The position numbers and the translations under genes were made by a program. A DNA stretch of 21,003 bases from a virus. The DNA lies in IMG/VR virus record IMGVR_UViG_3300046683_000177, positions 1 through 21,003 of that record; one strand, written 5' to 3'. Positions 27 through 21,003 of this stretch are shown piece after piece. Each line of letters starts with the position of its first letter. Position 1 is the first letter of the stretch. The notes under the pieces are model-generated. The model was not told the DNA's origin. It made no database searches and saw only the letters and a program-made list of their open reading frames with translations.

Positions 27-524
27 ATGATCGACACAATCACGCACTTTCTGGCGGCAATCACGGAGGGGGGGTGGCGTAATGCCATTCGCTCCGTCCT
101 GGTGCCTATTGGTGATCGGTATTCGACGCAGGTCATCAATACGGCCGGCCTGACGCTGGATGCTGGTTCCGTGACGGCGAAAATCGGCGCGGCAGACTTC
201 TACGCAATGGCAAAGGGAGTGACGATCACTATTGCCGCCGGCACTACGATGCCGGTGTTGACGGGTCTGAATGTCACGGCCACGCGGTTCAACGTGTTTT
301 GCTTCTTCGCGGATTCCTCTGCTGTCGTGACGGTAGCCATGGGCACCCAAGGCACCTCTTGGGCGAACATGGTCTGGCCGCCATTCCCGTTGAATAAGGT
401 GCTGGTGGGAGGCTTTCTCATCAATTACGCCAGCACTTTCACGGGCAATACGACACATCTCGATACGGCCGGCGTCGTCTACTTCAATGGCGGCGGCCCC
501 TTCGATCCCTCTGTTCTCGTTTAA
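27..524 (+). CDS. Putative capsid-associated (decoration-like) protein, 165 aa
   Basis: Small, beta-rich, Ala/Thr/Val/Gly-rich protein with no membrane segment. It is placed as a capsid-associated or decoration protein because it opens the structural block and because a similar-sized neighbour follows. ATG 27 is preceded by AAAGGAG at 13-19 within a hairpin. The C-terminal half (about residues 115-155, with FPLNKVLVGGF and later TTHLDTAGV) looks like a diverged version of the same part of the next gene (FPSLPDDFCPMAY, then PGTGSW and TASGV). That suggests a tandem paralogue pair with one fold. The family is not identified, and a fibre-base or other virion role is equally possible. The gap to the next gene is 11 bases, so co-expression is expected. 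Confidence 0.75.
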   Translation: MIDTITHFLAAITEGGWRNAIRSVLVPIGDRYSTQVINTAGLTLDAGSVTAKIGAADFYAMAKGVTITIAAGTTMPVLTGLNVTATRFNVFCFFADSSAVVTVAMGTQGTSWANMVWPPFPLNKVLVGGFLINYASTFTGNTTHLDTAGVVYFNGGGPFDPSVLV

Positions 525-535
525 GGAACAACAAC

Positions 536-1033
536 ATGGTACTTCCTGTCCCCTCTCCGGACACCCGGAGTTTCGCGAACGCGGCTTTCGTCGCCGGAAC
601 GACAAGCACTTATACGACCACCGTCACCACGGCCGGCATTATCAACGGCGAGTGGATCACGCCGCTCGTCGCGCAGACTGCTACCGCGACACCAACGACG
701 GACGCGAATACTGGCGTCGCGTTCAACGCACTGCAACCTAACCAATGTTGCGCGATTGTGTTCGGCACGAATAAAGCCGGCGCGATCAAAATGTGCCAAG
801 GGCCAATCCTCGCGACACTGGTTGGCGTCACGACCACGGTTGGCGGTTTCCTGAACGCTCCGCAGTTCCCCTCGTTGCCAGACGACTTTTGCCCTATGGC
901 GTATACCGTCGTGCGGACAGCGCCGTCAGCGGCCGCCTGGATCCCCGGAACGGGGTCATGGACGGCGAGCGGGGTTAGCGCCACGACGTTCCAGAACTGC
1001 TCGACGTTGCCGGCGCGGCCGCAGATCGCTTGA
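536..1033 (+). CDS. Putative capsid-associated protein, paralogue-like partner of the first gene, 165 aa
   Basis: Start ATG 536 has AAGGA at 523-527 overlapping the upstream stop, with 8-base spacing. The product is rich in Thr/Ala/Val and predicted beta, with no signal peptide or membrane helix. It has five cysteines (two adjacent in NQCCA, then CQG, FCP and NCS), more than its neighbour. Identical length to the previous gene and the FPSLPDD...W.PGT..W block suggest common ancestry and perhaps alternate capsomer-decorating subunits. The stop at 1031-1033 is only 4 bases before the first helix of the structured RNA element downstream, so ribosomes finishing this gene would cover the 5' arm of that fold. 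Function is inferred from context only. Confidence 0.75.
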   Translation: MVLPVPSPDTRSFANAAFVAGTTSTYTTTVTTAGIINGEWITPLVAQTATATPTTDANTGVAFNALQPNQCCAIVFGTNKAGAIKMCQGPILATLVGVTTTVGGFLNAPQFPSLPDDFCPMAYTVVRTAPSAAAWIPGTGSWTASGVSATTFQNCSTLPARPQIA

Positions 1034-1037
1034 TGAA

Positions 1038-1137
1038 GGTGTCGCGGGTTAGGCTTATGGCCGCGCGTAACGCCTAACCGAGACAGGAAGCCACACCGTG
1101 GTCTGTTTTCCTGTGCGCGGCCTCTAGCCGCGACACC
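1038..1137 (+). ncRNA. Candidate structured RNA with pseudoknot, about 100 nt
   Basis: All helices below are exact Watson-Crick matches read directly. A: GGTGTCGCGG 1038-1047 with CCGCGACACC 1128-1137. B: GTTAGGC 1048-1054 with GCCTAAC 1072-1078. C: GGCCGCGC 1059-1066, inside the loop of B, with GCGCGGCC 1115-1122. D: ACAGGAA 1083-1089 with TTCCTGT 1108-1114. E: CCAC 1091-1094 with GTGG 1098-1101. The order A-B-C-B'-D-E-E'-D'-C'-A' is an H-type pseudoknot (B/C) with a hairpin in its long loop, closed by outer helix A. Helices use about 70 of 100 bases. There is no U-tract. No known riboswitch or ribozyme signature was recognised. Possible roles are transcript processing, stabilisation or attenuation. 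Confidence 0.6.
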
Positions 1138-1201: not shown

Positions 1202-1693
1202 ATGCCACAAGGCCGAGAACTGAACAGCGCGAACGAACCGATTGACCAGTTGCCGCCCATTGGGACGGTGATTCGACCAGACGTCATCGCGGTTGAGACG
1301 ATTGAGGACAAAGACTACCTGGAACGGCTCAAGTTTGCCGAAGAACCAGTCACGATCTGGATCGAGGAAGGTCAGGAGGAAAACGCTCCGCGAACCGTTG
1401 GCCCGATCCAGGTGAACGGCACTGGCGTCGAGGTGCTTATCAAGGATCAGTGGGTTCCATTCGGACATCTGCCGGTGAACACGCAATTGGTCATCAAGCG
1501 GAAATACCTGGCTCTCATGCTGGGGTCAAAACGAACCCGGATCACGCACGTTCAGGATCACGCGGAGGCCGACTTTTCGCAGATGAACATCATGCGGCGC
1601 CAGACTTCGGCCGCGATGTCGGTGACGGTCCTGCTGGACGAGAATCCGCGTGGTAGGGCGTGGATGATGGAACTGACGCGGCGCGCGGCGTGA
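1202..1693 (+). CDS. Conserved-looking phage protein of unknown function, 163 aa
   Basis: The frame is open from an ATG at 1151, but the first 17 codons read as an Arg/Pro-rich non-coding leader. ATG 1202 has GAGGAG at 1189-1194 with 7-base spacing, so I start there. The product has an acidic N-terminal half (DVIAVETIEDKDYLERLKFAEEPVTIWIEEG...), a compact beta section around KDQWVPFGHLPVNTQLVIKRKY and a basic C-terminal end. No catalytic or binding motif is recognised. It overlaps the next gene by GTGA (1690-1693), implying translational coupling to the adaptor-like protein and a likely head-tail junction or assembly role. It is the first gene after the structured RNA element and is probably under its control. 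Confidence 0.8.
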   Translation: MPQGRELNSANEPIDQLPPIGTVIRPDVIAVETIEDKDYLERLKFAEEPVTIWIEEGQEENAPRTVGPIQVNGTGVEVLIKDQWVPFGHLPVNTQLVIKRKYLALMLGSKRTRITHVQDHAEADFSQMNIMRRQTSAAMSVTVLLDENPRGRAWMMELTRRAA

Positions 1694-2454
1694 ACTTTCT
1701 CCAACTCGCACAGCGGGCCGGGATCGAATGCGGCATCTGTGAACGGCAATCCGTCACCACGGCGTTGCCATCGATCGCGAGCGCGACTGGCAGTTGGGGA
1801 CGGATTGTCGGGTGGATCAATGACGCCTGGACCGACGTGCAGATGGACTGCCAGCAGTGGGACTGGATGCGCGCAAGCAACATCCTGCGCCTGAGCACGA
1901 CCGCGCCTCTCGGCTCACCGACTGCTGGCGCGCAGTTCGTGCCTCTTGCCGGTCAGGCCACATGCCCTCTCGGGATAGGCGCGGGCACGGTCGGCATTGA
2001 TCCGGAGACGTTCGCGGAGTGGGACGAATGGTCATTCCGGAATTACACGACCACGACGGGCTTCACCGATGAAATCGCGATGGGATCGGTTTCATTTGAT
2101 CGGTGGCGTAATAGTTGGATGATGAACGCCTCGCGGACTGTTCAGACGCGCCCCACTGTTGTTGCGATCGGCCCAGACAAATCCGTGAACCTGGGATCGC
2201 CGTCGAATGGCCTTTACACCATCACGGGCGATTACTTCGTGGCCCCGGTATCCATGGTCGATGACACCGATACGCCCGTTGGACTGCCGACGCGATATCA
2301 CATGCTGGTCGTGTATCGGACAATGATCAAATACGGTTATTACGATTCCGCAAGCGAAGTCCTGCAACGCGGAACCTATGAGAACAACGGCATGTTCGCA
2401 CAGTTGGAGGCGCAGTATGCGCCGCGTTTCCGGCGAGCGGGGGCTTTGGCATGA
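1690..2454 (+). CDS. Putative head-tail adaptor-type structural protein, 254 aa
   Basis: GTG 1690 overlaps the upstream stop by four bases; an in-frame ATG at 1660 exists but would lie deep in the previous gene. The N-terminus (NFLQLAQRAGIECG, then RIVGWINDAWTDVQ and WDWMR, residues 1-65) is a helical pattern I associate with a family of podovirus structural proteins whose members begin NFLxLxQRxxxExG and continue with RLVxWxNxAWxDIQ. The rest is beta-rich (PETFAEWDEWSFRNYT, RPTVVAIGPDKSVNLG) and ends in a helical region with WRNSW- and YRTMIKYGYYDSA-type segments. Position after capsid genes and before the nozzle-like gene fits an adaptor role, analogous to T7 gp11. Analogy is by position, not by demonstrated homology. 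Confidence 0.7.
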   Translation: MNFLQLAQRAGIECGICERQSVTTALPSIASATGSWGRIVGWINDAWTDVQMDCQQWDWMRASNILRLSTTAPLGSPTAGAQFVPLAGQATCPLGIGAGTVGIDPETFAEWDEWSFRNYTTTTGFTDEIAMGSVSFDRWRNSWMMNASRTVQTRPTVVAIGPDKSVNLGSPSNGLYTITGDYFVAPVSMVDDTDTPVGLPTRYHMLVVYRTMIKYGYYDSASEVLQRGTYENNGMFAQLEAQYAPRFRRAGALA

Positions 2455-4416: not shown

Positions 4417-4561
4417 ATGGATGCTGTCCAAAAATATCCCGCTCGACCGCGAGACATACCTCGACCTTGCCTACGGAGGCGAGCGTCCGGCGGAATGGAC
4501 GGCGGAGCACGAGTTAGAGGTGCCAGAGCCATTCAGGACGAGGACAACGCAAACCGTCTAA
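4337..4561 (+). CDS. Small phage protein overlapping the previous gene, 74 aa
   Basis: A strong GAGGAGG at 4322-4328 lies 8 bases before ATG 4337, inside the last 80 bases of the preceding gene in another frame. The product has a Pro/Gln N-terminus followed by a conserved-looking core (LRWMLSKNIPLDRETYLDLAY) and an acidic tail (EWTAEHELEVPEPF). Similar short hypotheticals with a PLxRExYLxLAY core occur in podovirus late operons. There is no membrane segment and no cysteine. It is probably translated in a ratio to the upstream gene. The role is unknown; an assembly chaperone would fit its size and position next to the nozzle gene. Confidence 0.75.
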   Translation: MPPQPGPQSPNLREELTRLSGQDGVLRWMLSKNIPLDRETYLDLAYGGERPAEWTAEHELEVPEPFRTRTTQTV

Positions 4562-4566
4562 CAATC

Positions 4567-4595
4567 CGGTCGGTCTCCGGTAATGGGACCGACCG
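4567..4595 (+). promoter_or_regulatory. Perfect hairpin abutting the start of the large tail gene
   Basis: CGGTCGGTC (4567-4575) pairs exactly with GACCGACCG (4587-4595) around an 11-base loop. It lies between the stop of the 74-aa gene (4559-4561) and TTG 4596. The only Shine-Dalgarno-like GGGA (4585-4588) straddles loop and stem. There is no U-run, so it is not a classical terminator. Confidence 0.5.
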
Positions 4596-20275: not shown

Positions 20276-21003
20276 TGAAAACATTTCTGTGGGGGCTCCT
20301 GGCCTGCGTCCTGGCCGGTAACGCGATGGCCGCCGACGTGCCGATGGACAGTCTTATCCTTATTCCAAAAGGGTCGCCGCCGGGATCGCCCGCGAACGGC
20401 CAGATGTGGAGCACGTCGGCGGGGTTCTTTGGCAAAAGCAGCGGCGGCGGCGTGGTCGGGCCGTTCGGCACGGGCGGCGGCGGTGGCTCTGGCACCGTCA
20501 CGAGCGTCAATGGCACCAGCACGGGAGGCACACTCACGCCGACCGGCGGCCCCGTGACGACCTCGGGATCGTTGAATTTCGAACTCAACCTGGCGCACGC
20601 GAACACGTGGAGTGGGCAGCAAACCTTCGTGGCGCCAATCCTTGGCACGATCGCTTCGGGAGTTGGCACCAACCTGACGGGGTTGACCTTGGCCGGCCAC
20701 GCGGCACAGGCGGCGAACACCGTCGTTGCCAACGTCACTTCGGGCTCGGCCGCGCCAACGGCTGTGTCGGTGCCAGGGTGTGTTGATACCAGCGGCAACC
20801 ACTTAAACTACACGAGCGGCACGGGCTTCTCTTGCGGCACGAGTTCGAGCGGCGGTGGTAGCTCGTGGAACCTGACTGACGGCACGCATACCATTACCGG
20901 CGTTACCACGGTAACTACTCCGATTGGGTCACTGTTGGTCGGAGGTTCGGGGACCGCCGCCACATTGACGCCAGTAGCCTCCACGCGCACCGCCGCGTCG
21001 CCC
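20275..21003 (+). CDS. Tail-fibre-like protein with signal peptide, 3' end outside window
   Basis: ATG 20275 shares a base with the upstream TAA and the frame stays open for 243 codons to the window edge. Residues 1-19 (MKTFLWGLLACVLAGNAMA) form a Sec signal peptide, probable cleavage AMA/AD. Then a short PPGSPANGQMWSTSAGFFGK segment, a poly-Gly hinge, and fibre-type repeats: GTVTSVNGTSTGGTLTPTGG, TWSGQQTF, ANTVVANVTSGSAAPTAVSV, SSWNLTDGTHTITG. The GTVTSV...GGP(V)T(T)SG pattern is typical of phage tail fibres, which are normally cytoplasmic. A second exported protein in the same cluster makes chance unlikely. Cysteines in VPGCVD and FSCGTS could pair after export. Confidence 0.75.
   Translation, partial: MKTFLWGLLACVLAGNAMAADVPMDSLILIPKGSPPGSPANGQMWSTSAGFFGKSSGGGVVGPFGTGGGGGSGTVTSVNGTSTGGTLTPTGGPVTTSGSLNFELNLAHANTWSGQQTFVAPILGTIASGVGTNLTGLTLAGHAAQAANTVVANVTSGSAAPTAVSVPGCVDTSGNHLNYTSGTGFSCGTSSSGGGSSWNLTDGTHTITGVTTVTTPIGSLLVGGSGTAATLTPVASTRTAASP

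Follow-up and report, generated by a model that had tools for sequence, protein, structure and literature searches.

The ratio of capsid to neck proteins needs to be set within one operon, and the locus described here raises the question of whether a structured RNA lying between the two groups of genes could contribute to setting it. The window, by which we mean the whole 21,003-nt stretch analysed (IMGVR_UViG_3300046683_000177, an uncultured phage), carries the element at 1038-1137 on the plus strand, as are all genes and helices of the window given below. The two genes upstream (27..524 and 536..1033) each encode a protein of 165 aa that has no family match, the second having 76 viral relatives; position and small size suggest that both are cement/decoration proteins. 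In relatives, the cement-like gene pair sits behind an N4-gp56-type major capsid gene (TIGR04387 for contig L118), and ORFs homologous to the L118 capsid gene are found in L001, L005, and L092. Downstream of the element, a gene for a 163-aa protein with the Shine-Dalgarno sequence GAGGAG (1202..1693) precedes that of an SU10-type head-tail adaptor, a neck protein (1690..2454; PF24175, E 6.8e-10); an in-frame ATG at 1151, lacking a Shine-Dalgarno sequence, would lengthen the 163-aa protein by 17 residues. A first-pass annotation had placed the element between head genes and a neck gene, 4 bases past a stop codon, and both statements hold: the second cement-like gene stops at 1031-1033, with another in-frame TGA directly behind (1034-1036). 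Past this TGA the frame stays open across the whole element and as far as the gene that follows (1034-1151), and L001 is similar. The gap is not the only sizeable one, as had been claimed, since about 180 nt at 4417-4595 are also devoid of a long ORF. Given the capsid and cement genes 5' and the adaptor gene 3', the element lies on the border between head genes, whose products are high-copy, and neck genes, whose products are low-copy.

All five of the helices proposed for the element were recovered at their positions. A helix search gave the outer stem A of 10 bp, in which the 5' arm GGUGUCGCGG (1038-1047) pairs with the 3' arm CCGCGACACC (1128-1137). Helix B joins 1048-1054 to 1072-1078 by 7 bp, or 8 bp if G1047-C1079 is assigned to B rather than to A. 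The pseudoknot helix (PK), evaluated in the crossing-helix test described below, pairs the loop strand GGCCGCGC (1059-1066) with GCGCGGCC (1115-1122) over 8 bp and can be extended to 11 bp with G-U and A-U pairs. Hairpin C (1083..1114) is formed by 1083-1089 and 1108-1114, with 7 bp plus one G-U, and encloses the 4-bp hairpin D (1091-1094/1098-1101).

The fold is stronger than that of shuffled sequence. RNAfold gave a minimum free energy of -53.1 for the 112-nt region, whereas 200 dinucleotide shuffles averaged -37.1 +/- 3.6 (z -4.44) and never reached the native value. We also used stacking energies to find the strongest pair of crossing helices and compared it with shuffles; the pair B+PK within the 80-nt interior scored -35.9 kcal/mol, which 0 of 300 shuffles reached, and over the full 112 nt it was reached by 2 of 300. 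As a control, 80-nt stretches taken at random from the window behaved mostly as expected, 3 of 60 being reached by at most 1 in 100 shuffles. A perfect inverted repeat can fold from either strand, and the minus strand of the element passed the crossing-helix test as well (0/400 shuffles). The comparison with shuffled sequence that the annotation had proposed thus came out in its favour, folds and crossing helices of equal strength being rare, and we conclude that the structured element is real and stronger than chance.

Whether the pseudoknot itself forms is less clear-cut. The best nested RNAfold structure is a rod made up of A, PK, C, and D, from which B is missing, indicating that B and PK compete thermodynamically. 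When a pseudoknot penalty of 9 to 15 is assumed, the energy of the pseudoknotted fold is estimated at -37.1 - 21.5 + 9 to 15, or about -43 to -49 kcal/mol, against -52.1 for the nested fold. In line with the view that the pseudoknot is not a mere alternative, the loops (4 nt, 5 nt, and 3 nt with hairpin C) would leave room for B and PK together and the crossing pair beats shuffles, but the nested rod is predicted to be slightly more stable; pseudoknot formation in the window is plausible. A covariation check on the window interior found no variants, the only close copy (the second cassette of L003, see below) being identical over 77 nt.

We compared the element with known classes of RNA. The absence of a U tract, noted earlier, is correct for the sequence 3' of 1137, so that the combination of a GC-rich hairpin and a direct U tract that marks an intrinsic terminator is not seen there; a UUUU (1106-1109) does lie inside the element, following hairpin D, and the resulting site (1090-1109) is weakly terminator-like, one such site being found where 0.8 were expected by chance. 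As the annotation had stated, no recognised RNA class applies: in a search of the window with Rfam 15 the element rose above no gathering cutoff, lax thresholds gave chance matches for the elements, and neither ARAGORN nor Rfam found a tRNA or tmRNA in the window. Among the relatives, Rfam matched only tRNAs, in L088 and L029. HDV-like and twister-like topologies, examined by hand, were rejected on strand order or core, and an integron attC site was rejected because GTTAGGC/GCCTAAC, although they resemble attC cores, are in the wrong order and present only in the window interior. Literature searches for such an element returned nothing. As the structure begins a few bases past the stop, and the genes in the window and in L001 are in one frame that is open after the stop or stops, we considered that it might stimulate stop-codon readthrough and so yield a fusion of the cement protein with the product of the next gene. 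Two consecutive UGA codons in the window, a further in-frame stop in L003, and the out-of-frame arrangement in L005 and L021 make this most improbable, and it was rejected on the ground that the frames are not kept among these relatives.

The same outer stem, GGTGTCGCGGG/CCCGCGACACC of 10-12 bp, was found in the same gap in phages of four lineages, a small number of independent records, and these carry four mutually unalignable interiors. The elements of L001 (93 nt), L005 (118 nt), and L021 (139 nt) have unchanged arms around wholly different interiors, the 5' arm being identical in all three; comparison of the interiors on both strands gave no convincing homology between different ones. The window interior (1048..1124) recurs only in L002-L004, three contigs of the clade with the same sequence at the element, where it forms the rear cassette of a tandem pair. 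The front cassette is of the L001 type, and its 5' arm differs only in the first base. In L003 the 3' arm of stem A in the second cassette is intact and the 5' arm is decayed (GCGTCGCGA), which argues that stem A is not strictly required there. The pseudoknot appears to be common but not universal: crossing helices in the L001 interior were reached by 0 of 300 shuffles, whereas no pseudoknot in the interiors of L005 and L021 reached significance (156/300 and 89/300).

The interiors that are shared are more alike than the genes around them. The window and the second L003 cassette are 100% identical over 77 nt, compared with 89-94% for the cement and downstream genes, and L001 is identical to the first L003 cassette over about 93 nt, with flanking genes at 94-96% upstream and 87% downstream. 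At neutral identities of 91.8% and 94.2%, identical runs of 77 and 93 nt have chances of about 0.001 and 0.004, respectively. Judged from these alignments, the identical interiors may reflect either strong constraint or recent exchange; that close relatives carry unrelated interiors favours exchange of the interior as a block. Inverted ends that are conserved although the inside varies, identity above background, and a tandem in which the 3' flank ACCAATGA is repeated (no empty site aligns) could also describe a mobile or recombining cassette at the DNA level, with stem A as its terminal inverted repeats and the RNA fold as a by-product. We consider this unlikely. Copies at several unrelated sites, as expected of a MITE or transposon, were not seen, the relatives having the element at this position only and the L003 genome at no other. 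No clear target-site duplication and no transposase were seen, and several interiors fold better than shuffled sequence, which such an element would not need.

Searches beyond the clade bear on the same point. Exact pattern scans for the paired arms returned 57 viral and 7 genome loci; nearly all viral matches outside the clade lie in coding or other contexts, such as repeats beside FtsK-like genes, and the genome loci lie mostly in long open frames, with one long inverted repeat. No relative was found in 84,980 genomes or among cultured phages. The cassette interiors were not found in 50,697 phage records, the few matches in 72,556 plasmid records were short and attributable to chance, and the 62.8-kb relative genome (L003) holds no clear further copies or other stem cassettes. 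Because outside matches are chance, coding, or of other context and the interiors are absent from cultured phages, stem A is a feature of this phage clade.

Several other sequences were noted along the way. In apparent intergenic gaps of L061 (13081-13191) and L062 (12530-12659), arms GTGTCGCGG/CCGCGACAC and a hairpin GGCGTG..CACGC are common to both and the insides otherwise differ; a tRNA-like T arm GCGGGTTCGAATCCCGC comes after the L062 element. GTGTCGCGG also occurs in several direct and inverted copies just 3' of an FtsK/SpoIIIE-like gene in L029 (3554-3730) and L035 (882-1060), which look like an array of putative binding sites for the FtsK/SpoIIIE-like protein. A long near-perfect inverted repeat beginning with GGTGTCGCGGG in a Phycisphaeraceae MAG (L161:6605-6704) looks like a small transposon-type element. 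The window itself has a 12-bp perfect inverted repeat CCGCCGACGTGC within a long ORF at 20330-20422, and the related genome L167 has a 10-bp version at 2841-2929.

The position behind the cement gene is occupied by structure far more widely than stem A. Of 56 distinct loci gathered through the cement protein, a count that takes in the stem-A clade, 48 show a GC-rich hairpin within 90 nt 3' of the homologous cement gene, and at 19 of those 48 it is followed by a U tract (4 or more U among the 8 bases after it). Terminator-like hairpins at the same spot in most relatives fit the role in expression of the adjoining genes that the annotation had thought plausible. L098, L118, and L131 share a different pseudoknot (B of 8-10 bp, PK of 7 bp), with one double-sided, compensatory change and a matched indel among the only three sequences, a level of covariation that shuffles reach too; its crossing helices are reached by 5, 2, and 1 of 300 shuffles, respectively. 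A second cassette in L118 (3068-3154), found in this one contig only, repeats the architecture of the window element without sequence similarity: an 11-bp outer stem GTGGGTTGTGG/CCACAACCCAC unrelated to stem A, an inner stem GGTCATGCCGA/TCGGCGTGGCC, and a loop pairing GGGAG/CTCCC (1/400 shuffles). The corresponding position in L088 (3017-3112, minus strand) holds a tRNA (RF00005, 36.9 bits) antisense to the late operon, behind a hairpin resembling an intrinsic terminator and with an extended outer stem GCGTCGCGGTCG; its anticodon, read by eye, is probably GCA.

Simple hairpins in relatives, the nested rod as minimum-energy fold, and the one terminator-like site inside the element are what would be expected if this were a plain stable hairpin, a terminator or stabiliser, with close kinship and high GC accounting by accident for the pseudoknot and the conserved stem. 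This seems to us rather improbable, given that L005 and L021, in which the cement protein shows only 73-75% identity, keep an identical outer stem around changed interiors, and that several interiors unrelated to each other have crossing helices stronger than those of shuffles.

The explanation that we favour, to which we give about an even chance, is that the element acts in cis, as a structured part of the late transcript that marks a boundary between over-expressed head genes and low-copy neck genes, built as an exchangeable cassette bounded by a stem. It would replace the terminator or stabiliser hairpin found at exactly this spot in most relatives. Terminator-like hairpins throughout the family and the precedent of phage LUZ100 (see below) suggest that it does the same job as a terminator by serving as a roadblock or processing site; because it is without a terminal U tract, the main action would be to block 3'-to-5' exonucleases or to be cleaved by a double-strand-specific RNase, such that the upstream head mRNA outlives the downstream mRNA and head proteins are made in excess. 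Transcription would presumably pass through the element, and slowing or partial termination of the polymerase, a form of attenuation, may be a secondary action. Stem A, fixed in sequence, would act as a frame within which the interior is swapped as a block, probably by recombination, with strong folding kept; the swapped interiors would often hold a hairpin whose loop pairs downstream. Exact conservation of the sequence of stem A counts against the boundary reading, as a mere roadblock would not need it, and may point to sequence-specific recognition or to a crossover frame for cassette exchange. Also weighing against this reading are the L005 and L021 interiors with no significant pseudoknot, the greater predicted stability of the nested rod in the window, the small number of lineages with this stem, and the ability of a perfect inverted repeat to fold from the minus strand too.

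The block-replaced interiors within a fixed outer stem, identical interiors in diverged backgrounds, tandems of different cassettes, and strong compact folds would also suit a stable free RNA that is released from the head-gene transcript, with stem A as its processing site, and acts in trans on a host factor or defence, interior turnover then reflecting an arms race. The location agrees with this, since no operon should be expressed more strongly than the one that holds the head genes. On the other side, plain terminators occupy the same spot in other relatives, which argues for a cis role, and the database and L003 searches described above gave no clear copies elsewhere. A trans-acting RNA is a real alternative, weaker than the cis boundary reading and, in our judgement, improbable. 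A broader formulation, in which phages reserve a place 3' of the capsid genes for interchangeable, often pseudoknotted, tandem-stackable interiors in a constant stem frame that either tune late expression or yield functional RNAs, we regard as possible but doubtful.

If the cis boundary reading is right, there would be one fixed position at which phages appear to set the head-to-neck ratio by means of terminators, hairpins, pseudoknots, or stem-framed cassettes. A structured transcript boundary after the capsid genes is already known; the present element adds to this the apparent swapping of interiors within a stem frame. It is unusual for the inside of an RNA to be replaced as a block around which the sequence of the closing stem does not change, and RNAs of this type would escape ordinary covariation searches, since no two interiors align. 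The evolution of the element is more interesting than its pseudoknot. The first-pass annotation was right about a structured element of no Rfam class at the head/neck junction; the fixed outer stem with replaced interiors, the tandems, and the unrelated pseudoknots, all visible in relatives, had escaped it.

T7 Tphi and the central terminator of filamentous phages each follow the major capsid gene directly. In the T7-like phage LUZ100, a terminator directly 3' of the capsid gene was reported to control capsid expression (PMC10134795). The element shares with these terminators the position behind head genes and the expected excess of head protein; unlike them, it has no terminal U tract, is much larger, is capable of forming a pseudoknot, and has a fixed outer stem with a swapped interior. 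The Mu-gpT-DE candidate motif is likewise a structured RNA 3' of a head gene, the major head gene of Mu-type phages, whereas our element belongs to a different phage type, matches no Rfam model, and has an interior that is not conserved. Integron attC sites, REPINs, and MITEs resemble it in that their inverted ends are conserved and enclose a variable inside, but the element occupies a single genomic position and no recombinase or transposase partner was seen. The packaging RNA of phi29 also has paired ends and keeps its fold under sequence turnover; the element differs from it in phage group, in genome position, and in its occurrence as tandem pairs of different cassettes.
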